26,090 nucleotides of DNA from a virus: IMG/VR virus record IMGVR_UViG_3300027896_000192, positions 1-26,090 of that record, one strand, 5' to 3'. How positions within the stretch are numbered: the stretch's first letter is position 1; each line of letters begins with the position of its first letter. The notes under the pieces were generated by a model, which ran no database searches, was not told the origin of the DNA, and saw only the letters and a program-made list of their open reading frames with translations. Position numbers and translations under genes: made by a program. This document shows, one piece after another, positions 3,384 to 23,711 of the stretch.

Positions 3384-3397
3384 GAACAAAATTAAAA
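3384..3397 (+). promoter_or_regulatory. Putative phage late promoter element (copy 1)
   Basis: GAACAAAATTAAAA sits between a terminator and the hub-like gene. It is the same 14-mer found upstream of the leftward genes at 5112, 19984 and 25010, so it is not explained by coding constraint. It ends only 9 bases before the ATG at 3407, and the SD AAGGTG overlaps its last bases. Confidence 0.7.
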
Positions 3398-4680: not shown

Positions 4681-5112
4681 TCAATATTTTCTATTTAGTT
4701 TATCCAACGTTCGGCGATATTCTTTTTCGATCTTATTTCTTAATTCGACCATCTTTTCTCTATCTTTTTTTAGATGTTTGATTTTCTCAGATTCGTCTTC
4801 TTTTTTAATATCTAATTTAGAAAGTCCTTGATCGATAGTTTGTATCATATTATGAATATATTTAAGATCTAATGTTTTTTTGCATAAATCTTTTCGTACT
4901 GGATCTTGAATTTTTTCACAATTTTCTTCTTTTCCCAATGATCGCATAATTCCCAATAATATAGATCCCAGACCAAGAGAAACTAGTATGCCAAGAGTTA
5001 CTTTTACTCCAATATTATGTTTACTTCTAAAAAATTTAATTAAAGCAATTAAGCCGCTAATTATATATTTTTTATTTTTTATATCGAAAATGTACTCTTC
5101 ATATAATTTCAT
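4681..5112 (-). CDS. Small membrane-associated coiled-coil protein (143 aa)
   Basis: Lysine-rich. Residues about 36-56 (VKVTLGILVSLGLGSILLGI) form one glycine-containing hydrophobic segment, likely membrane-spanning. Two cysteines follow at about residues 65 and 77, and then a long charged helix (residues about 85-140, rich in K and E) that should form a coiled coil. There is no recognisable family. The leftward gene at 18579 has the same plan (N-terminal helices, one hydrophobic segment, cysteines, charged terminal helix), so the two may be distant paralogues. It has its own late element 34 bases upstream, on the opposite strand from the terminase promoter. A late promoter suggests a virion or lysis-stage protein. 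A role as spanin or holin partner is possible but unsupported. Confidence 0.65.
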   Translation of the reverse strand: MKLYEEYIFDIKNKKYIISGLIALIKFFRSKHNIGVKVTLGILVSLGLGSILLGIMRSLGKEENCEKIQDPVRKDLCKKTLDLKYIHNMIQTIDQGLSKLDIKKEDESEKIKHLKKDREKMVELRNKIEKEYRRTLDKLNRKY

Positions 5113-13721: not shown

Positions 13722-13774
13722 TGGACAAAAATTAATTAATTGTATATATTACTTAGAGAATATTGGGAGATAAT

Positions 13775-13954
13775 ATGAATGACGGCACGAAGTTGCATGT
13801 TTTTACTACTAAAAAAATACACGAATTGAAAAACTTTGAACTTTGGTGGGAAGAAAAATCCTCCACTGATGATAGAGATATTTTTCCAGAAGAGCTCTCA
13901 AACGAGGAATGGTTCGAACAGTTTAAATTCTATATAGAAAATGTTAAAAAGTAG
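13775..13954 (+). CDS. Small hypothetical acidic protein (59 aa)
   Basis: An isolated rightward gene between two leftward ones. ATG 13775 is chosen because GGGAGA lies 6 bases upstream; an in-frame TTG at 13763 would lie upstream of that site. The protein is acidic and aromatic (FELWWEEKSS, EEWFEQFKFY) with no cysteine. I recognise no family. It is followed directly by a bidirectional terminator. Its isolation, small size, own ribosome-binding site and terminator suggest a separately regulated accessory gene, for example a small host-takeover protein, but nothing in the sequence proves this. Confidence 0.65.
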   Translation: MNDGTKLHVFTTKKIHELKNFELWWEEKSSTDDRDIFPEELSNEEWFEQFKFYIENVKK

Positions 13955-13999
13955 TGACCGGCTTACCCATCTGTTAGCTCAGGTAGTCGGTCACTATTT
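13953..13999. terminator. Bidirectional terminator
   Basis: An 8-bp stem, AGTGACCG (13953-13960) with CGGTCACT (13988-13995), encloses a 27-base loop. T-rich tracts follow on both strands (ATTTTAA rightward, ACTTTTTAAC leftward). It lies exactly between the converging genes ending at 13954 and 13999 and overlaps the rightward stop codon. Confidence 0.65.
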
Positions 14000-16515
14000 T
14001 AATACGATGCGATAATCTTTACCGAAATAGTATTTTCGGCGAAGAAAATATACTCAGGAGAGTATTCTAATAATTGAATTCTTGTAAAACTATTAAGATT
14101 AAAATTAAAGAATATATCAGTTTTTGGATCTATTAGATGACAATATGCTACACCGCTTACATTGTGAACGCAACTAATTACCTCAGATCTTCGGATTATA
14201 GAATTAATTCCAAATTTTGAAGTAAATTTATCTAATAGCGAAGTTTTAACTAACTGTATAAGATCACGATCAGACCCATAATAATCAGCCGATTTGTATA
14301 TTTCAATATTTATAGATAGTGGAATTGTATATTGCGGAACTATCCAAGCCGTTCCGGAAAAAATATATTGAGCATCTTTATTTTCAACGAGAATGACATC
14401 ATTTGTAGTCGGCTCTATATATTCCCACTGAGCTAAACCCGGTAGAATAATTCGTTGACATTGCATATACCAATTTCTATGAGATATCATATCACTATTA
14501 TATGTAGATTCGGGATCAACTATATACCTATCTCCAACAATAGGATTACTCGGTTGCGTTAATACAAAATCTTTAACCGGTCTTTTATTTGTCTTATTTA
14601 ATTGCATGCCGATTAACGCCCCAGTTGTATCTGCAAATTTTAAATTAATAAAATCTGTTAACATTCTGTACCCTTCAAAATATTGAGATAAAACAAGTGG
14701 TTGTATACAAAGGCCTTCAAAATCTTTTTTATCTACTAAATTATCGTAATAATTTTTATCTATAGTTGGAATATCATAAATAATAGAATCTGTTGATGTC
14801 GAATCTTGTACAACATTGGAAATCATTGATAGGTTTAATAATTGTGTCACCAATATATTTGTTCTATAGTCAGATACCGGAACCGGCATACCGTATACTG
14901 ATTTGTTTAATGTAAATAATGCTGTCGTTGTTCCCTGAGGATATTCAGTATATGATGAGAATGTATATCTAAAACAATGATTCGTTGAATCATTTGTCAT
15001 AGCATACTGTTGACCAGTTTCTTCTATTATAAAATAACAAGATGCTGTAGAATCCGTTCCAGTATAATTATACGTAAAATCGATGGATCCTCCAGAAGAA
15101 TTTGATACCCCCAACGTTTGCAAAACGATACTTGTATAATATGGATCGCTAACAGAAACTAAGACCGGGCTTAATAATATATCCTCAACAACATATTCAT
15201 AATATGCATAATTATTAATTCTATCTATTACTAAATCAAAAACGTTATAATAAAATTCGGAATTAAAAAATAGTGCACTGTATTTTGGTATCCTATTGAC
15301 AGAACTATCTATCGAATACCAAATATTTTTAGTCGGTACGGTATTATTAAGATACATTAACGTTGTATATAACTGTATTTCGTTAAATCGAATGTCAGAT
15401 CTTTTTAATATCGGAGAGGAATTTGCTCCAAATGGAGAATTTGGAATGATAACGTTGATATTTTGAAAATCTTTTTCCGATACTAACCTAGATAAAGATG
15501 TTATATTCTGAATCGCATTCGTTCGAATGTTTTCTAATGATTCCTCATCCACACCCCCAGATGATGGTGATGTGTTAGTACATGTATAGTCAACAACTCT
15601 CACTTCTCCGGTTGTTAATTCTACATAAATACGATCTCCAGATGTAATCGTTCCAGTTATAACATTTCCAGCCGCACCAGCTGTGGTGGAATAATTAACA
15701 TATACCGTTGAACCGGCTGGAGGCTGTACACCTATAAATCCATTTCCAAAATATAATCGTCTTCCAAAAGATTTTTTCTCGGATACAAAACCTTTTTCAC
15801 CAGTTGGTATTAGGAATACACTTGGATATTGGGTATAAATATTAGTTTCACTGCCAACTGCAACTGAAATCGATGATAATTGATCATCAAAAATTAAATC
15901 AACGCTAGTAAATACATAAGGTTGTAAATCTGATCGTATCTGTAGCTGCTGTTTATCTGATGCTGTTTGGTTAGTTGGAAGGGTTATATAAAATACTACA
16001 GGATTTGATGTTGTATCAATATATACCGGCAGATCAACTTCTCTATTATCATCTAATATTAACTTAGCAGTAACAGTTTCATTATTTGTTACTGTAATCT
16101 GAGTTCTATAATATGTTTTAAATAGCATGCTCCCGGCATAAAAATTAAAACCTTCTGGTAATGTAAATGTTGCAGATGGGGAGCCTGGATCGTAGAAACC
16201 CATTGGAAACCCCACTAATACATATGCCGTTGAGTAGGCTGCACCCTTGGGTGTATATCCAAGGAAAGATGATAAATTATATATGGTTTCTGGCAACTGT
16301 GCAGTAGTTAAAAAAAACTCTCTATATGTTGATACATTATAAAAAAATAAATTTGAAGTTAATGTTGATATTGTATTAATGATAAATGATAGAAATGAAG
16401 ATTTTGCAAGATCTACATTTCCAAGTTCTAGATAGTCATTGACGGAGGAGATTATTTGATTTCTAATTTGATCTCTAGAAATATATACTTGTGAACTAAT
16501 AGATGTATCTGCCAT
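13999..16515 (-). CDS. Baseplate wedge protein, gp6 / baseplate J-like (838 aa)
   Basis: A structural protein of the baseplate wedges, which holds the ring together before sheath contraction. Visible features: an N-terminal helical part with SRDQIRNQIISSVNDYLE and FFLTTAQLPETIYNLSSFLGYTP (residues about 65-87). That 'R..R..A.. . .N...LA..LGY.P' region is characteristic of gp6/J-type proteins. Beta-rich domains follow with FGNGFIGVQPPAGSTVYVNY (about 270-290), the repeated 'FG.G..G..P..G..I.V.Y' element of the family. Then SLENIRTNAIQNITSLSRLVSEKDFQ (about 325-350) is the conserved 'E.IR..AP....t..R.Vt..Dy' segment. T4 gp6 is about 660 aa; the extra length is in the C-terminal beta region. It is the last gene of the leftward baseplate operon. 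Confidence 0.9.
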   Translation of the reverse strand: MADTSISSQVYISRDQIRNQIISSVNDYLELGNVDLAKSSFLSFIINTISTLTSNLFFYNVSTYREFFLTTAQLPETIYNLSSFLGYTPKGAAYSTAYVLVGFPMGFYDPGSPSATFTLPEGFNFYAGSMLFKTYYRTQITVTNNETVTAKLILDDNREVDLPVYIDTTSNPVVFYITLPTNQTASDKQQLQIRSDLQPYVFTSVDLIFDDQLSSISVAVGSETNIYTQYPSVFLIPTGEKGFVSEKKSFGRRLYFGNGFIGVQPPAGSTVYVNYSTTAGAAGNVITGTITSGDRIYVELTTGEVRVVDYTCTNTSPSSGGVDEESLENIRTNAIQNITSLSRLVSEKDFQNINVIIPNSPFGANSSPILKRSDIRFNEIQLYTTLMYLNNTVPTKNIWYSIDSSVNRIPKYSALFFNSEFYYNVFDLVIDRINNYAYYEYVVEDILLSPVLVSVSDPYYTSIVLQTLGVSNSSGGSIDFTYNYTGTDSTASCYFIIEETGQQYAMTNDSTNHCFRYTFSSYTEYPQGTTTALFTLNKSVYGMPVPVSDYRTNILVTQLLNLSMISNVVQDSTSTDSIIYDIPTIDKNYYDNLVDKKDFEGLCIQPLVLSQYFEGYRMLTDFINLKFADTTGALIGMQLNKTNKRPVKDFVLTQPSNPIVGDRYIVDPESTYNSDMISHRNWYMQCQRIILPGLAQWEYIEPTTNDVILVENKDAQYIFSGTAWIVPQYTIPLSINIEIYKSADYYGSDRDLIQLVKTSLLDKFTSKFGINSIIRRSEVISCVHNVSGVAYCHLIDPKTDIFFNFNLNSFTRIQLLEYSPEYIFFAENTISVKIIASY

Positions 16516-18578: not shown

Positions 18579-19046
18579 TTAGATTTCGTTTAATTCTTGC
18601 TGTAATTTATCGATCTTTTCATCTTTAATTCTTTGACATGTTGCTCGTTGAGTTGTCAAGTTACAATTTACTTTTTGTAATCTCTGTATTGCCACGATTA
18701 GTTTGTTTGTTTTGGCGCATCGTTTCAAACAGGAGTTATCTCCTTTGCACAATCTTTGACATGGGTTGATAACATTTTTTAATAATTTATAACCAACCAA
18801 TGCGCCAATTCCCAACGCCAATGTTTTATGTTTTCCAAATATTTTAGAACTGAGGGATTTTATTCCATTTTTTGCGCGAGGATCTTTTAATAAATTTAAT
18901 TTAACCGCTTCTTTTATATAATTGATAACTTGCGTCGATTCTGTCATATTTAAAATATCAGATAATGCAGATATCTTATCTATAGTAGATAGGTGGGATT
19001 CATATATAATCCCACCAGCAAGTTTTTTAATTATACATAAATTCAT
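18579..19046 (-). CDS. Cysteine-rich membrane-associated protein with terminal coiled coil (155 aa)
   Basis: Sits between the tube-like and gp26-like genes (SD AAGGATGA). The N-terminal 70 residues are helical and basic. Residues about 75-90 (TLALGIGALVGYKLL) form a short Gly-rich hydrophobic segment. Then come cysteines at 96, 100, 106 and 110 (CQRLC...CLKRC, a twin CX3C with a 5-residue linker), further cysteines at 128 and 137, and a Lys/Glu/Gln helix to the end. The twin CX3C spacing could form a disulfide-linked helical hairpin in an oxidising compartment or bind metal. I know no family. The general plan matches the 143-aa protein at 4681-5112. Co-transcription with tail genes suggests a minor virion or infection-stage membrane protein. 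Confidence 0.7.
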   Translation of the reverse strand: MNLCIIKKLAGGIIYESHLSTIDKISALSDILNMTESTQVINYIKEAVKLNLLKDPRAKNGIKSLSSKIFGKHKTLALGIGALVGYKLLKNVINPCQRLCKGDNSCLKRCAKTNKLIVAIQRLQKVNCNLTTQRATCQRIKDEKIDKLQQELNEI

Positions 19047-19061
19047 AATATGGTGTCATCC

Positions 19062-19787
19062 TTATAGGGGTTTAGTCATATTATTAACAGCAATTGTATT
19101 TCTAACATTCGATAAAATCCCCTGACATTGTTTATACACCCAAGGATCTGTCCATAGATAATCAAATTTAAATTCAATCTCAATATCTAACTTATTTATA
19201 TCTTCCACATTTGATCCAAATAACTGATGGGGATCTGTAATTGGATATACACCATCAAAACATGCGTAATAGTTTATATCTTGAAAATTTGGCGCAAGTG
19301 TAAAATAGTATGCAGTGGCAGAATAATTCGTTTTATTATATCTGTTGTCACCGTCAGTCAATGAAGATATTCCGGTACGATAATCACGGATCATCATTAT
19401 CCAAGAATGAATGATATTAAAAATTGGGGTATTGTTAAATTCTAAAAATTTAATATTAAATGATGTGTCATAATCAATATTAGTCGGGACTGTCCACTTA
19501 ATACCGCCCAAACCAACGAGATCGACATGATTCAATCTTCCTCCTGGCGTGGTAACTTGAAGAGCAGCTGCAGATAAAATATCTATCATCTGTCGTTCAC
19601 CGAGTTGCATTCTACCAGGAACACCACTTGATCTATTATTGTTATATGAAGTCATTAGCCCCCCGGGCAAATTTGCAAATTGAATAAAGTGATAACCTGT
19701 AATAAGTGGTTCTGCACTTCCCTTAGATCGACCGCCAAAATCTTTCGTGATTAAATTTTCTGCTAAATTTATGTACGGATTGTCCAT
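19062..19787 (-). CDS. Tail tube-like structural protein (241 aa)
   Basis: Start at ATG 19787, 8 bases after GAGGGAG; an in-frame TTG at 19805 is part of that SD region and is rejected. The protein is soluble and beta-rich, with elements like those of tube-fold proteins: YHFIQFANLPGGL (residues about 31-43), LNHVDLVGLGGIKWTVPTNIDYDTSFNIKFLEF, then a helix IFNIIHSWIMMIRDYRTG, YFTLAPNF and DIEIEFKFDYLWTDPW. A long central helix between paired strands, plus a final strand of the 'v.i.F.f....' type, is what I expect of gp19-type tubes and tube-like completion proteins. T4 gp19 is only 163 aa, so it could instead be a tail terminator or junction protein. It lies downstream of the sheath, split from it by the inserted cassette. 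Confidence 0.6.
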   Translation of the reverse strand: MDNPYINLAENLITKDFGGRSKGSAEPLITGYHFIQFANLPGGLMTSYNNNRSSGVPGRMQLGERQMIDILSAAALQVTTPGGRLNHVDLVGLGGIKWTVPTNIDYDTSFNIKFLEFNNTPIFNIIHSWIMMIRDYRTGISSLTDGDNRYNKTNYSATAYYFTLAPNFQDINYYACFDGVYPITDPHQLFGSNVEDINKLDIEIEFKFDYLWTDPWVYKQCQGILSNVRNTIAVNNMTKPL

Positions 19788-19801
19788 ATTGTGTATCTCC
19801 C

Positions 19802-19984
19802 TCAAATAAATTGTTGTTTTCGTTTATTTTTATGTTCTAATTCTTTTGGATGTAGTGACTTATTTCCAATAGCATCCAAATCCACATACTTTAATTTAGA
19901 TCTCTTAATCATGTGTGGAGAATCCATTGGGAATACCGATTCCCGATTTAATTTCTTTATGTATTCTTCAATTAATCTATTCAT
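19802..19984 (-). CDS. Small basic hypothetical protein (60 aa)
   Basis: Very basic and helical (IEEYIKKLNRESV, HPKELEHKNKRKQQ). The stop TGA lies inside the GAGGGAG ribosome-binding region of the tube-like gene, so translation of the two is probably coupled. Two starts are possible: ATG 20008 (68 aa) and ATG 19984 (60 aa). I prefer 19984 because the late element GAACAAAATTAAAA (20006-19993) would otherwise lie inside codons 1-6 and most of the coding start would be upstream of the transcript start. Neither start has a strong SD. No family is recognised. Confidence 0.6.
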   Translation of the reverse strand: MNRLIEEYIKKLNRESVFPMDSPHMIKRSKLKYVDLDAIGNKSLHPKELEHKNKRKQQFI

Positions 19985-19992
19985 ATCAATTC

Positions 19993-20006
19993 TTTTAATT
20001 TTGTTC
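19993..20006 (-). promoter_or_regulatory. Putative phage late promoter element (copy 4, leftward)
   Basis: The minus strand reads GAACAAAATTAAAA, identical to copies 1, 2 and 6. It ends 8 bases before ATG 19984, nearly the same spacing as copy 1. It would restart leftward transcription of tail genes after the inserted rightward cassette. Confidence 0.65.
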
Positions 20007-20112
20007 ATACGTTTAAAGAAAAGGGCGTGCTCTGATGGTTTTAAAAACCAAACTCTATATATATTTCTTAATAGAGAGTAATAGAATATTTAATTTAGGA
20101 GACCATAACCAT

Positions 20113-20568
20113 ATGCAATCTAAACTATTAACTACACATTTTTCAATTGCTAATTTTTTACAAAAATATGTTATAGAAAATAATGAGTTATATAAAATAT
20201 GTTCAGATCATTTTGGTTGTGGTCCTTTAGATGGAGTATGTTTCGAATTTGCAAAGGCATTAAAACCGTTTATACCCAGGACAACTATATATTCTGTATA
20301 CGATATATTTAAGGTGGAACATCATTTTGTCCTGGGAGTAAGATTTGAGGATATATTGTATATGATAGATGCTGATGGAATTTCACTACCCAATATCTTA
20401 TTAGCACGATGGGTACATGAAGAGGGGCTCGATCAACCATATATCGGCATTACACACTCTATCATAAAAGATATAATTCCCAAAGATGATGATCTTGATG
20501 GATTCGATCCATCGAAAGATTTAATTAATAAATTATTTTCCTATTTCTATAAATCATTATATTCGTAA
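20113..20568 (+). CDS. Putative Cys/His/Asp-triad hydrolase-like protein (151 aa)
   Basis: First gene of the cassette. ATG 20113 is chosen because AGGAG lies 11 bases upstream; the frame opens earlier (ATG 20035) but without an SD. The pattern GPLDGVCFEFAKAL (C43), KVEHHFVLGV (H70/H71) and YMIDADGIS (D86 or D88) gives Cys, His and Asp in the order and spacing of small papain/transglutaminase-like enzymes, each in the expected setting: Cys at a helix start, His in a strand, Asp in a 'hhDadG' turn. The rest is charged and helical. There is no signal peptide, so it is cytoplasmic. The family is not identified and activity is inference. It is followed after 14 bases by the LRAT-like gene, so the two are co-transcribed. 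Confidence 0.6.
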   Translation: MQSKLLTTHFSIANFLQKYVIENNELYKICSDHFGCGPLDGVCFEFAKALKPFIPRTTIYSVYDIFKVEHHFVLGVRFEDILYMIDADGISLPNILLARWVHEEGLDQPYIGITHSIIKDIIPKDDDLDGFDPSKDLINKLFSYFYKSLYS

Positions 20569-20582
20569 GCTGGAGGATTTTT

Positions 20583-20963
20583 ATGAGAGGGGACCATATT
20601 AGAGTATTAAGATACGGTATATTTTATCATCACGCTATTGATATTGGAAATGGAAAAGTTATACAATATCGAGGGGAGATTATAAAAGGGAAAGATCCAA
20701 AAAGTTCTATAGTCGGAATAGACTCGACATCAGAATTTATTCGTTACGGTGGGTCTGATATTGAAATTGTAAATTATGATGGAGTATTATTTTCACCAGA
20801 TGAAGTCGTAAAAAGAGCTAAGGGTAGACTTGGTGAGAATTTGTATAATATTTTCTTTAACAACTGTGAACATTTTTGTTATTGGTGTAAAACTGGACGA
20901 TCAAAATGTATACAATTAAACACAATATTTAATGATATTAGATCAATATTTCCAAAAAAATAA
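20583..20963 (+). CDS. LRAT-domain (NlpC/P60-like) acyltransferase/hydrolase (126 aa)
   Basis: Essentially a stand-alone LRAT domain, a permuted papain-like fold whose members transfer or hydrolyse acyl groups on lipids, amines or proteins. Visible: GDHIRV.R....YHHAIDIG with the catalytic His (H17) and the family's 'GDgkViqY' strand; an F..Y..G acidic middle; FSPDEVVKRAKGRLGENLYNI; and NNCEHFCYWCKTG with nucleophile C95 in the NCEHF motif. The length matches single-domain members. GGAGG precedes the ATG by 7 bases. There are no membrane segments, although many relatives act at membranes. It lies in a cassette with a second Cys-type protein and a lipoprotein protease. The substrate is unknown: phospholipid, peptidoglycan or host protein are all possible. 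Confidence 0.85.
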   Translation: MRGDHIRVLRYGIFYHHAIDIGNGKVIQYRGEIIKGKDPKSSIVGIDSTSEFIRYGGSDIEIVNYDGVLFSPDEVVKRAKGRLGENLYNIFFNNCEHFCYWCKTGRSKCIQLNTIFNDIRSIFPKK

Positions 20964-20983
20964 AAAGTAATATGGAGTATGTC

Positions 20984-21646
20984 GTGAGAAACGAAAAAAT
21001 TAGAATTATCCTATTAGTAGTATTGATTAGCTTAACACTAACATCGTGCGCACATTTTATTGATCCGACTGAAGTGGCACAAAAAGTTCTTCCCGCAACA
21101 GCCTATATTATATTGCGGGATAGTAACAGAGGCATTATGGGTATTGGGAGTGGATTTTTTATTCAGGCCGGTACTATTGTAACATGTTATCATGTTGTCG
21201 CTACCGCACTTAAAGTTCCAAATGTTAAAATATCTGTATGTATAAACGGCAAAATAGATAAAGAATATGAAATTCGTAAGATTGTATATAAAAATGAGAC
21301 CAATGATATTGCAGTTATTGCAACTGATAATATTGCTCCATCGGTTTTAAAATTAGGAAATAGCGATGATATAATGATAGGCCAAACAATATATGTAGGA
21401 GGAAATCCAAAAGGAATTCCTTCAATATTCACAGTTGGGATTATAAGTGGAATTATTGATCGTTCATTAGATCCACTGGGACAGATTATATTTTCTGCTC
21501 CAATTGCTCCGGGCAATAGTGGGGGGCCTTTAGTTGATGAAGATTGTAATGTTATTGGAATAGTCGAAGCTACGATTGCAGGCACTCAAATGACCAATAT
21601 GGCTATACCAATAAATCTATTGGATAAAATTGTTCTCCGTTATTAA
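20984..21646 (+). CDS. Trypsin-like (HtrA/DegP-type) serine protease, predicted lipoprotein (220 aa)
   Basis: GTG 20984 is preferred: GGAG lies 6 bases upstream, and the protein then begins MRNEK followed by a hydrophobic run ending LTLTSC, a classic lipoprotein signal peptide with lipidated C22. ATG 20972 is the alternative. The protease domain has all three catalytic residues: TCYHVV (H70), NDIAVI (D108) and PGNSGGPL (S179). PIAPGNSGG and the IGIVEA strand are typical of HtrA proteases. There is no PDZ domain after it, so it is shorter than cellular DegP. It should be exported and anchored at the outer face of a membrane. It is the last gene of the cassette and is followed at once by a strong terminator. 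Roles in envelope modification or superinfection exclusion are inference. Confidence 0.9.
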   Translation: MRNEKIRIILLVVLISLTLTSCAHFIDPTEVAQKVLPATAYIILRDSNRGIMGIGSGFFIQAGTIVTCYHVVATALKVPNVKISVCINGKIDKEYEIRKIVYKNETNDIAVIATDNIAPSVLKLGNSDDIMIGQTIYVGGNPKGIPSIFTVGIISGIIDRSLDPLGQIIFSAPIAPGNSGGPLVDEDCNVIGIVEATIAGTQMTNMAIPINLLDKIVLRY

Positions 21647-21651
21647 CGAAT

Positions 21652-21687
21652 AAAAAATAGGACACTTTATAAAGTGTCCTATTTTTT
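21652..21687. terminator. Perfectly palindromic bidirectional terminator
   Basis: A 36-base perfect palindrome: AAAAAATAGGACACTTT (21652-21668), AT, AAAGTGTCCTATTTTTT (21671-21687). It gives a GC-containing stem with a T-run on both strands. It lies between the converging protease and sheath genes and serves both. Confidence 0.9.
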
Positions 21688-21707: not shown

Positions 21708-23711
21708 TTAAGCTATGTATAAATTAATAGTTATCTGTTCTAAAGCCTCTATTGGAGTTAGAATTATATTAACATGGCAACGCTTAGTTTTAAGTTCATA
21801 ATCAGTGGCACCAACATCGACTGAATAACTTGAAAGACCGCGTCTACTTTTTAAGGTTTCTAAGAAAGAACTAACAGTACTTCCAATAGAACTCCATGTG
21901 ATAACATCGTTCTGTTCAAATAAATATGTTCTGCAGAATCCTTCTAAGGCCTTCTTGATATATAATACTAATCTTACTACATTAACATCTTGAAGTGGAG
22001 ATAGTCTTGTTTGCGATGTTAATTGGCTGAAAAGAACATATCCATTACTAAAATGTACGATAGGATTGATTTGCGACAAATACATAGCATCTCGCTCAGA
22101 TTGTTTTGGAGAAAATCTTAAAGCTTTGGCCGATCCAATCGAACCTCTATTGTAGCCAGCTACGGCATACCATAATTCACCGATCCTATCATTTCTTGGA
22201 ACAAGATATGATAGATGATATATTGGTGAAAACCATATATCTTTTCCAGTAAAAGAATCATATACTTTATTATAAGATTCATATATTGAAACAAGATCAG
22301 TATTATACGGATTATCCCCATTACGAGCACCCAATGAAATATTAACAGAAGCATTATCGCCATTATCTATAAATGCAATACAATCTTGGCGAGTCATAGC
22401 AAGATTTACAATCTGCGTCTTAACATCTGAAGAATAACCACCATCAAAAATAACATTGAAACCCACACCTTCTGAATCCAGAACTAAGTCTTCGACTGAA
22501 TTTGTAATAGGATTAAGTAACGTTCCATTAAATGCCTGTGCCAATATCATGTTCGAATTTACAGAATCATATAATCCCATACTATTCTTAATAGATCCTT
22601 CTGACCCACCTTTCATAGGAGCAATTGGATTATCGATCCAAGCATCTGCGATAGATGTATTAGATTCCTTAATTCTATATGAGATTGTGGTGTGTGGACG
22701 GAAATTAGCAACATCGCCCGACCAGACTCTTTCAGCATATGTTAAATCTCTACCATCAAACACATGAACGGTAGTTCCAGTAACATCTGGAGAAGCTCCC
22801 AACCAACCATATATCTCTGTTCCAAATGCATCTTTAGCGATTACCATAAAGGTTGCATTTCCATGCTCTGTTTCATTTTCCCAATCATGGAAGTTTTGTT
22901 TATCATCTATAATAGTAGCCTGACCACCAAGAACAACTGGTGCATTTTCAACAGTAACTCTTCCAATATTTTTATCGAATATCTGTGTTAAAAGAGTATA
23001 TCCAGAAGAATATTCTCCATCGTGTTGTATCATTATGGCTCTTAAAAGTTTAGAATAAGTTTCTAAAACATCAGTAATCCATAAAGAATTTCCACTCTGA
23101 TCGATAGATTCGGGATCAAATGATACCTCAAATGATTCGACAACAGCATCCAAACCACTAGATTGCCGTTCGTATATATCCATGACATATACATCATTAA
23201 TCATAGGATTTGCATGAGCAGTTAATCTTACACCGAGAGCATTATAGAATTCACCACGCCCAATTGGATATAAAACACAAAGTGGGTGTACGTGATTAAG
23301 AGGTTCTAAAGAAGATTGTAATTGTAGTAGTGTTTGTCTATTGTCAGCATAGCTGATTAGGATCGTAGCCGATGTATCTGTTGGCTGCAATTCTCCAGAA
23401 ATAACAATACTTGCAAAATTTGCATCTTCTGGTAAACATCTCATAAAATAAAGCGATCCAGATTCACCTAAGAAATTATATGCAAAATAATGACACTGTC
23501 CTAATGATTTTCCAAGAGATCCAAAATTACCAATATTAGGAGTACCCCACTCAGAGATTAAATCTGCCTGTGAAGCAACTAATACTAATTGATTATCACG
23601 TCCTTTTGGCGTTAAAGCACACATAAGACCAACAGTCGATGGAACTTCTTGAATGTAACTATTGAGATCTATGATATTAGTATATACACCGGGTGAAATA
23701 TTGTTTGCCAT
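21708..23711 (-). CDS. Contractile tail sheath protein, gp18-like (667 aa)
   Basis: The sheath subunit that polymerises around the tail tube and contracts to drive it through the envelope. The N-terminus SPGVYTNIIDLNSYIQEVPST (residues about 6-26) is the sheath hallmark, followed by GLMCALTPKGRDNQLVLVASQADL..WGTP. The C-terminal domain has GFCRTYLFEQNDVITWSSI (about 580-598), SFLETLKSRRGL and LTPIEALEQITINLYI, which is the conserved strand-exchange domain. The length is close to T4 gp18 (659 aa). The SD is TTTGGAGA, with a late element 28 bases upstream of the ATG. It is normally followed by the tube gene; here a rightward cassette separates them. Confidence 0.95.
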   Translation of the reverse strand: MANNISPGVYTNIIDLNSYIQEVPSTVGLMCALTPKGRDNQLVLVASQADLISEWGTPNIGNFGSLGKSLGQCHYFAYNFLGESGSLYFMRCLPEDANFASIVISGELQPTDTSATILISYADNRQTLLQLQSSLEPLNHVHPLCVLYPIGRGEFYNALGVRLTAHANPMINDVYVMDIYERQSSGLDAVVESFEVSFDPESIDQSGNSLWITDVLETYSKLLRAIMIQHDGEYSSGYTLLTQIFDKNIGRVTVENAPVVLGGQATIIDDKQNFHDWENETEHGNATFMVIAKDAFGTEIYGWLGASPDVTGTTVHVFDGRDLTYAERVWSGDVANFRPHTTISYRIKESNTSIADAWIDNPIAPMKGGSEGSIKNSMGLYDSVNSNMILAQAFNGTLLNPITNSVEDLVLDSEGVGFNVIFDGGYSSDVKTQIVNLAMTRQDCIAFIDNGDNASVNISLGARNGDNPYNTDLVSIYESYNKVYDSFTGKDIWFSPIYHLSYLVPRNDRIGELWYAVAGYNRGSIGSAKALRFSPKQSERDAMYLSQINPIVHFSNGYVLFSQLTSQTRLSPLQDVNVVRLVLYIKKALEGFCRTYLFEQNDVITWSSIGSTVSSFLETLKSRRGLSSYSVDVGATDYELKTKRCHVNIILTPIEALEQITINLYIA

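Follow-up and report, generated by a model that had tools for sequence, protein, structure and literature searches.

A sheath-tube cargo slot in an uncultured jumbo phage holds an orphan gene, an LRAT-family gene and a lipoprotein serine protease gene

Three consecutive genes in the viral fragment IMGVR_UViG_3300027896_000192 form a compact cassette, inserted against the direction of the tail genes between those for the tail tube and the tail sheath, and the slot that it occupies is shared with related phages, where it holds other cargo or is empty. Our confidence in its anatomy, in the slot and in its status as cargo is high. The combination of genes and its genomic context are new, while a new system is not demonstrated. 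The window, by which we mean the whole stretch of 26,090 bases that was analysed, is a fragment of a contractile-tailed phage and encodes, by profile matches, a terminase, baseplate, sheath and tube proteins and a protein of tape-measure size. The reading we favour, tentatively and at a little short of an even chance, is that the cassette is early, interchangeable accessory cargo of the "moron" type that would probably act on lipids of the host membrane and on proteins of the envelope. Features are listed in Table 1.

Table 1. Coordinates of the cassette, its flanks and associated promoter-like elements in the window
Feature	Position	Strand	Description
Second opposite-strand insert	13743..13954	+	early-like element TATATATTACTTA and 59-aa ORF
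Tail tube gene	19062..19793	-	slot flank; PHROG tail tube E 5e-6, virion structural protein E 3e-11
60-aa ORF	19802..19984	-	apparently a shortened 'ESIF.MDS' HAD-like gene
Late-type promoter-like motif GAACAAAATTAAAA	19993..20006	-	faces tail tube operon, divergent from cassette
Early-type promoter-like element CTATATATATT-TC-(6N)-G	20055..20074	+	putative transcript start G20074
Gene A	20113..20568	+	151 aa, orphan
Gene B	20583..20963	+	126 aa, LRAT-family (permuted NlpC/P60)
Gene C	20984..21646	+	220 aa, lipoprotein trypsin-like serine protease, HtrA-type protease domain
Terminator	21652..21687	both	perfect palindrome, 36 bp, 18-bp arms
Tail sheath gene	21708..23711	-	other slot flank; PHROG tail sheath E 3e-68

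The cassette and the slot between sheath and tube

The original prediction, made from the letters of the window, was of three co-directional enzyme genes ending in a dedicated terminator. The genes, their strand, their coordinates and both intergenic gaps (14 nt between A and B, 20 nt between B and C) are all correct, and each gene is preceded by a Shine-Dalgarno-like sequence (AGGAG, GGAGG, GGAG). It also holds that no gene of the three resembles a tail component, that catalytic motifs are present, and that the whole appears to be a self-contained transcription unit. The palindrome downstream of gene C is predicted to form a hairpin of -19 kcal/mol on either strand and has T runs at both ends, one per strand. 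Lying between the convergent cassette and sheath genes with a T run on each side, it is a bidirectional terminator common to both; the predicted terminator is thus real, but it is not dedicated to the cassette. Codon usage and GC content of the cassette equal the background of the remaining contig, so that a recent foreign origin finds no support in composition. The only other copy of the cassette in IMG/VR, in 3300003852_000092, is identical save for nine N's; it therefore belongs to the same population and adds no independent support.

Searches with tblastn connect the sheath, the tube and another virion protein to AR9, BpSp, PBS1, staphylococcal jumbo phages and phiR1-37, and the tube gene can be aligned with tube proteins of the AR9 group. 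By these comparisons the phage is a jumbo phage with AR9, PBS1 and phiR1-37 as relatives; these have two multisubunit RNA polymerases. It resembles them in these three proteins and in its early and late promoter consensus, but protein identity is only 19-30%, and in those phages nothing intervenes between the sheath and tube genes. The tube gene, or the gene annotated in its place, directly follows the sheath gene in AR9, BpSp, phiR1-37, Machias, LPJP1 and PaBG.

A sheath profile search returned 79 loci of an environmental clade (L136-L214) that are 51-62% identical to this phage in the C-terminal part of the sheath. Where both genes were present (38 loci, 52-62% identical in that part), the distance from sheath to tube varied widely: at one extreme the open frames overlap by 27 bp, at the other 5,920 bp separate them, and the wide gaps contain cargo mainly on the opposite strand. 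This cargo is mosaic across the relatives. At 18 loci it includes a radical SAM/SPASM-like protein and at 9 loci small proteins that start 'K.DFVTNSSSS.F' (the 'VTNSSSSSF' proteins). Seven loci encode a CreA-family protein that begins with a hydrophobic leader (PF05981, E 3e-25; for example L136:7572-8063 and L142:7704-8207), and small membrane proteins and HNH-like proteins also occur. The presence of the CreA-family protein, with its hydrophobic leader, in the slot of seven relatives suggests that envelope-directed cargo recurs there.

Phage morons resemble the cassette in having their own promoter-like element and terminator and in lying between neighbouring late genes. As in morons, the insertion here separates genes that are adjacent in related phages; the terminator is clear, and the promoter is recognized by motif only. 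A deviating composition, often but not always used to recognize morons, is not seen. Superinfection-exclusion lipoproteins such as Llp of phage T5 likewise offer a parallel in their lipoprotein product, but T5 Llp is small and blocks a receptor instead of acting as a protease. The cassette differs from both morons and T5 Llp in that its composition is not foreign and the phage here is probably lytic.

Several further observations concern the slot and the window. The radical SAM/SPASM-like protein adjoins 'K.DFVTNSSSS.F' proteins in L136, L139, L141, L144, L156, L163, L164, L169, L180 and others. The small proteins look as if they could be modified by a peptide-modifying enzyme; the string TNSSSSSF was not found in the literature searched. 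In 14 relatives the gene ahead of the tube gene is a HAD-like one with the motif 'ESIF.MDS', and the 60-aa ORF at the corresponding place in the window contains ESVFPMDSPH, which by eye resembles this 14-locus cluster, with a phmmer match in 2 of the 79 loci. A longer, 68-aa reading of that ORF (19802-20008) overlaps the late-type motif, so its start is probably 19984. Two small proteins encoded on the minus strand at 4681-5112 and 18579-19046 share, by eye, a similar paired-Cys pattern and charged C-termini and are possible paralogues.

Promoter-like motifs and expression class

Two promoter-like motifs divide by strand in the clade. Among the 79 relatives, GAACAAAATWWAAA has 54 copies on the tail strand and one on the other, and CTATATATATWAAT has 63 opposite the tail genes and two on their strand; shuffled controls give 0-2. 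A ribosome-binding site and open reading frame follow 46 of 54 copies of GAACAAAATWWAAA and 54 of 63 copies of CTATATATATWAAT, against 13% for random positions. Transcript mapping in AR9 established an early promoter consensus, AAATATATATTAT-(6N)-G, and a late one, AACA-(6N)-TA/G (PMC5312081); the clade motifs CTATATATATWAAT and GAACAAAATWWAAA resemble the AR9 early and late promoters, respectively. On this resemblance to AR9, CTATATATATT would be assigned to the early class in the clade. Four large contigs of relatives each encode two different RNA polymerase beta-subunit (Rpb2) proteins, as expected for one virion and one non-virion RNA polymerase; the window fragment has none.

The window repeats the arrangement of its relatives. 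The 14-mer GAACAAAATWWAAA has six exact copies and the 13-mer AACAAAATWWAAA seven, with none expected for the 14-mer by shuffling. Late-type sites at 3385, 5147, 5182, 13708, 19993, 23740 and 25036 all lie 8-34 nt ahead of a start on the same strand, a range that widens to 8-42 nt when both early-type sites (13743 and 20055) are counted as well. Exact CTATATATATT is present in a single copy, against 0.14 expected. Of 22 relatives, 15 have the early-type element ahead of their opposite-strand cargo and 17 have a AACAAAATATAAA-type motif at the place equivalent to 19993-20006; in most relatives the two types point apart within the spacer between the cargo and the tube operon. Beyond CTATATATATT the cassette element departs from the consensus of the relatives, the match being one of the core only. 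It was not among the top matches to a rigid 28-column matrix built from the relatives and was not ranked by a scan with the literal AR9 early consensus, and a generic sigma-70 scan gave no clear excess over shuffled sequence. We consider it probable, on the analysis of these motifs, that the cassette is expressed early.

The second insert in the window has a similar design. Its 59-aa ORF runs from an ATG at 13775 to 13954 between opposite-strand late genes and ends at a hairpin (13948-14000). An exact TATATATTWCTTA occurs at two places in the window only, in this insert and at 20058.

The three products and their distribution

As predicted, two of the proteins are without a lipoprotein signal and one has it. 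That one, the product of gene C, was called a lipoprotein serine protease, and the call is upheld by a match to PF13365 Trypsin_2 (E 1.9e-24), an intact triad (H70, D108, S179) and a lipobox, LTS/C22, which follows by inspection the n-region and hydrophobic core of the signal VRNEKIRIILLVVLISLTLTS/C. The start is the GTG at 20984 and not the upstream ATG at 20972. The protein also matches phrog_11383 (E 1.6e-27) and HtrA structures (E 1e-18 to 1e-9). It resembles HtrA, DegP and DegS (MEROPS S1C), which are exported in Gram-negative bacteria, in its trypsin-like domain with intact triad, but it has a lipobox anchor and scores far under all HtrA equivalog cut-offs; because the PDZ domain is absent and the protein ends directly after the protease domain, we class it as an HtrA-like protease domain and not as HtrA. 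Elsewhere in the clade, a 119-kb contig of a relative (L177) encodes, away from its sheath gene, two trypsin-like proteins (L215 and L216), of which one has a signal peptide.

The LRAT domain predicted for gene B is real, with PF04970 matching at E 1.5e-22 and 80.6 bits, above the curated cut-off of 24.3. A structural model made with 32 relatives in the alignment (mean pLDDT 83.6) has HRASLS2 and PLAAT3/4 as best solved folds (E 6e-7 to 2e-5), and alignments and model agree on a permuted order in which the catalytic His16 precedes the Cys95 of an NCEH motif. Like PLAAT/HRASLS proteins, B thus combines the fold, the His-before-Cys order and the Pfam LRAT assignment, H16 and C95 corresponding to PLAAT H23 and C113. 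Unlike them, it has Gln28 in place of the third residue His, is without the C-terminal membrane tail, and is phage-encoded with a predicted activity; in the HRASLS2 alignment its His16 and Cys95 fall in catalytic positions and Gln28 in the third. Loss of catalytic residues in most homologues, named beforehand as an outcome that would count against the idea, is not what the family shows: in 119 LRAT homologue fragments the Cys is kept in 118 and His16 in 114. The third residue, Gln28 in B, is His in 109 and Gln in two, one of them from this phage itself. In papain-like enzymes generally, Gln is a known third catalytic residue. By profile and predicted fold, B is a member of the LRAT family with a variant active site. 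In most bacterial homologues the family core is followed by a long extension, which frequently includes a hydrophobic stretch and which B lacks; after the core B has nine residues, against a median of 114 in homologue reading frames (frame lengths). Neither a C-terminal hydrophobic tail nor a signal peptide was found in B.

LRAT proteins appear to be scarce in characterized phages. No convincing example was found among 50,697 phage records, the two matches being contigs of one 'phage' project that contain bacterial genes, and those annotated phage-database matches to LRAT and trypsin that were opened proved to be bacterial-looking sequence. The record CAKLQH020000039.1 (L006) is labelled Acinetobacter phage MD-2021a but encodes putA, metK, tktA and trmA and is bacterial sequence in a phage collection. 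A 770-aa phage protein at L040:368-2680 has an LRAT domain on its C-terminal side and an N-terminal part that by eye is like the Mu gpF type; this head-protein-like fusion may, from its sequence, represent a lipid enzyme packaged in the virion. An Anaerobiospirillum contig (L049) has LRAT-matching fragments side by side in three reading frames.

Gene A was described as a Cys/His/Asp protein. The candidate residues C43, H70/H71 and D86/D88 are present and lie in the region matching PF24591 (Phage_YunG-like), but the reading hangs on a weak match (E 0.018 for the protein, 0.004 for the core) of 15.4-17.4 bits, below the curated cut-off of 27 bits. A YunG-like protein with papain-like fold is possible on this sequence match. 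The product has no signal peptide. No relatives of A were found in phages or plasmids (tblastn), PDB, NCBIfam, PADLOC or 12 contigs of related phages, and the PF24591 profile found none in 349 genomes of one bacterial phylum plus 12 other genomes or records. An AlphaFold model from the single sequence had a pLDDT of 39 and was discarded for claims about fold.

The original prediction regarded the trio as the best candidate in the window for an undescribed system, and co-occurrence does not bear out a recurring one. About 115 LRAT loci were scanned (28 viral contigs, this phage excluded, the best 80 genomic loci and 7 plasmid or 'phage' records). No homologue of A was found near any of them, and none of C except a weak trypsin-like match in L052 (E 4e-4), about 3 kb from the LRAT gene. 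Near the sheath gene in the 79 relatives none of the three is present. LRAT and gene A are absent from 12 larger contigs of relatives, one of which has two scattered trypsin-like genes. The genes thus largely occur, where they occur in relatives, singly and scattered, the pattern that had been named as refuting. A conserved three-gene system is not supported; as far as searched with HMMER-type methods, which can miss strongly diverged copies, the A-B-C combination appears specific to this phage. Since the trio was found nowhere else, a shared pathway is without support from co-occurrence.

The same distribution gives weight to the explanation that A, B and C are unrelated passengers, collected singly by the slot and directed at separate targets, with their adjacency reflecting the slot. 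No two of the three were found together at the LRAT loci, the sheath loci or on the large contigs; LRAT genes on plasmids are single, with varied and unrelated neighbours; and the cargo of the relatives is mosaic. Against it stand the tight spacing, the single promoter-terminator unit, and the envelope connection that B and C have in common. We regard independent cargo as a serious possibility, nearly as likely as the reading we favour, because nothing else unites the three genes.

Possible action of the cassette

The permuted NlpC/P60 enzymes characterized to date, namely the mammalian PLAATs, LnsA (PMC7387801) and Tox-Act1 (PMC12994826), act on acyl chains. Bacterial LnsA carries out lipoprotein N-acylation (PMC7387801), and Tox-Act1, a type VI secretion phospholipase, cleaves PG and PE in E. 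coli (PMC12994826). B is like LnsA and Tox-Act1 in its permuted NlpC/P60 chemistry for acyl chains, but these two act outside the cytoplasm, whereas B is without a signal peptide, has no LnsB-like partner and is their kin at the superfamily level only.

If the cassette is envelope-directed accessory cargo, as we tentatively prefer, it would be transcribed from the early-type element; the polymerase would presumably be the one that is injected from the virion, and the products of the cassette would act at the start of infection. B, as a soluble enzyme, would form an acyl-thioester on Cys95 from phospholipid of the host inner leaflet and then hydrolyse or transfer the acyl chain. C would be exported, lipidated at Cys22, and would cleave an envelope protein from its own position at the membrane, and A would be a cytoplasmic papain-like enzyme. 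Together B and C would change the envelope of the infected host, with exclusion of other phages, suppression of an envelope defence or host takeover as candidate outcomes. Early expression, an unexported enzyme of lipid type and a lipid-anchored exported protease would fit action on the envelope shortly after the DNA enters the cell. The role of the cassette may be to modify the envelope or to exclude superinfecting phages, while a joint action of its products on the envelope is something we regard as possible but somewhat doubtful. HtrA-type proteases often serve in quality control, for which B is not needed, and this counts against the envelope reading, as do the Gln28 of B and its missing C-terminal extension.

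It is unlikely, in our judgement, that the cassette serves instead in cytoplasmic counter-defence, with A and B as papain-like enzymes that would inactivate a defence protein, peptide modifier or signal early and with C incidental. The early-type element and the absence of export signals from A and B would suit such a role, and papain-like folds, permuted and canonical, are common in conflict systems (PMC12994826). However, A and B match no PADLOC model, C matches retron-associated and other proteases there through its generic trypsin domain only, and characterized LRAT-like enzymes work on lipid. Least credible, to the point of being very improbable, is late lysis or virion maturation, with the protease and lipid enzyme weakening the envelope or processing tail proteins: the cassette does sit inside the tail genes, but it lies on the opposite strand with no late-type motif ahead of it and a terminator separating it from the sheath gene, no relative that builds this tail carries it, and the C product has the signal of a lipoprotein.

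A bolder form of the envelope-directed reading, which we think improbable, is that B and C constitute one early device for envelope takeover that excludes other phages from a cell carrying the jumbo phage. B would remodel inner-leaflet phospholipid or supply an unusual acyl chain, and the tethered C would destroy a receptor, a defence protein or the entry factor of a competing phage.

Characterized phages very rarely carry lipid enzymes of the LRAT type or lipoprotein serine proteases, and a phage-borne pair of the two would offer a testable route to envelope takeover. The more general result is the cargo slot between sheath and tube, with its strand-separated pair of promoter-like motifs, in a clade of uncultured jumbo phages: slot and motifs together offer a means, from sequence alone, to spot likely early, host-interaction genes among late structural genes.
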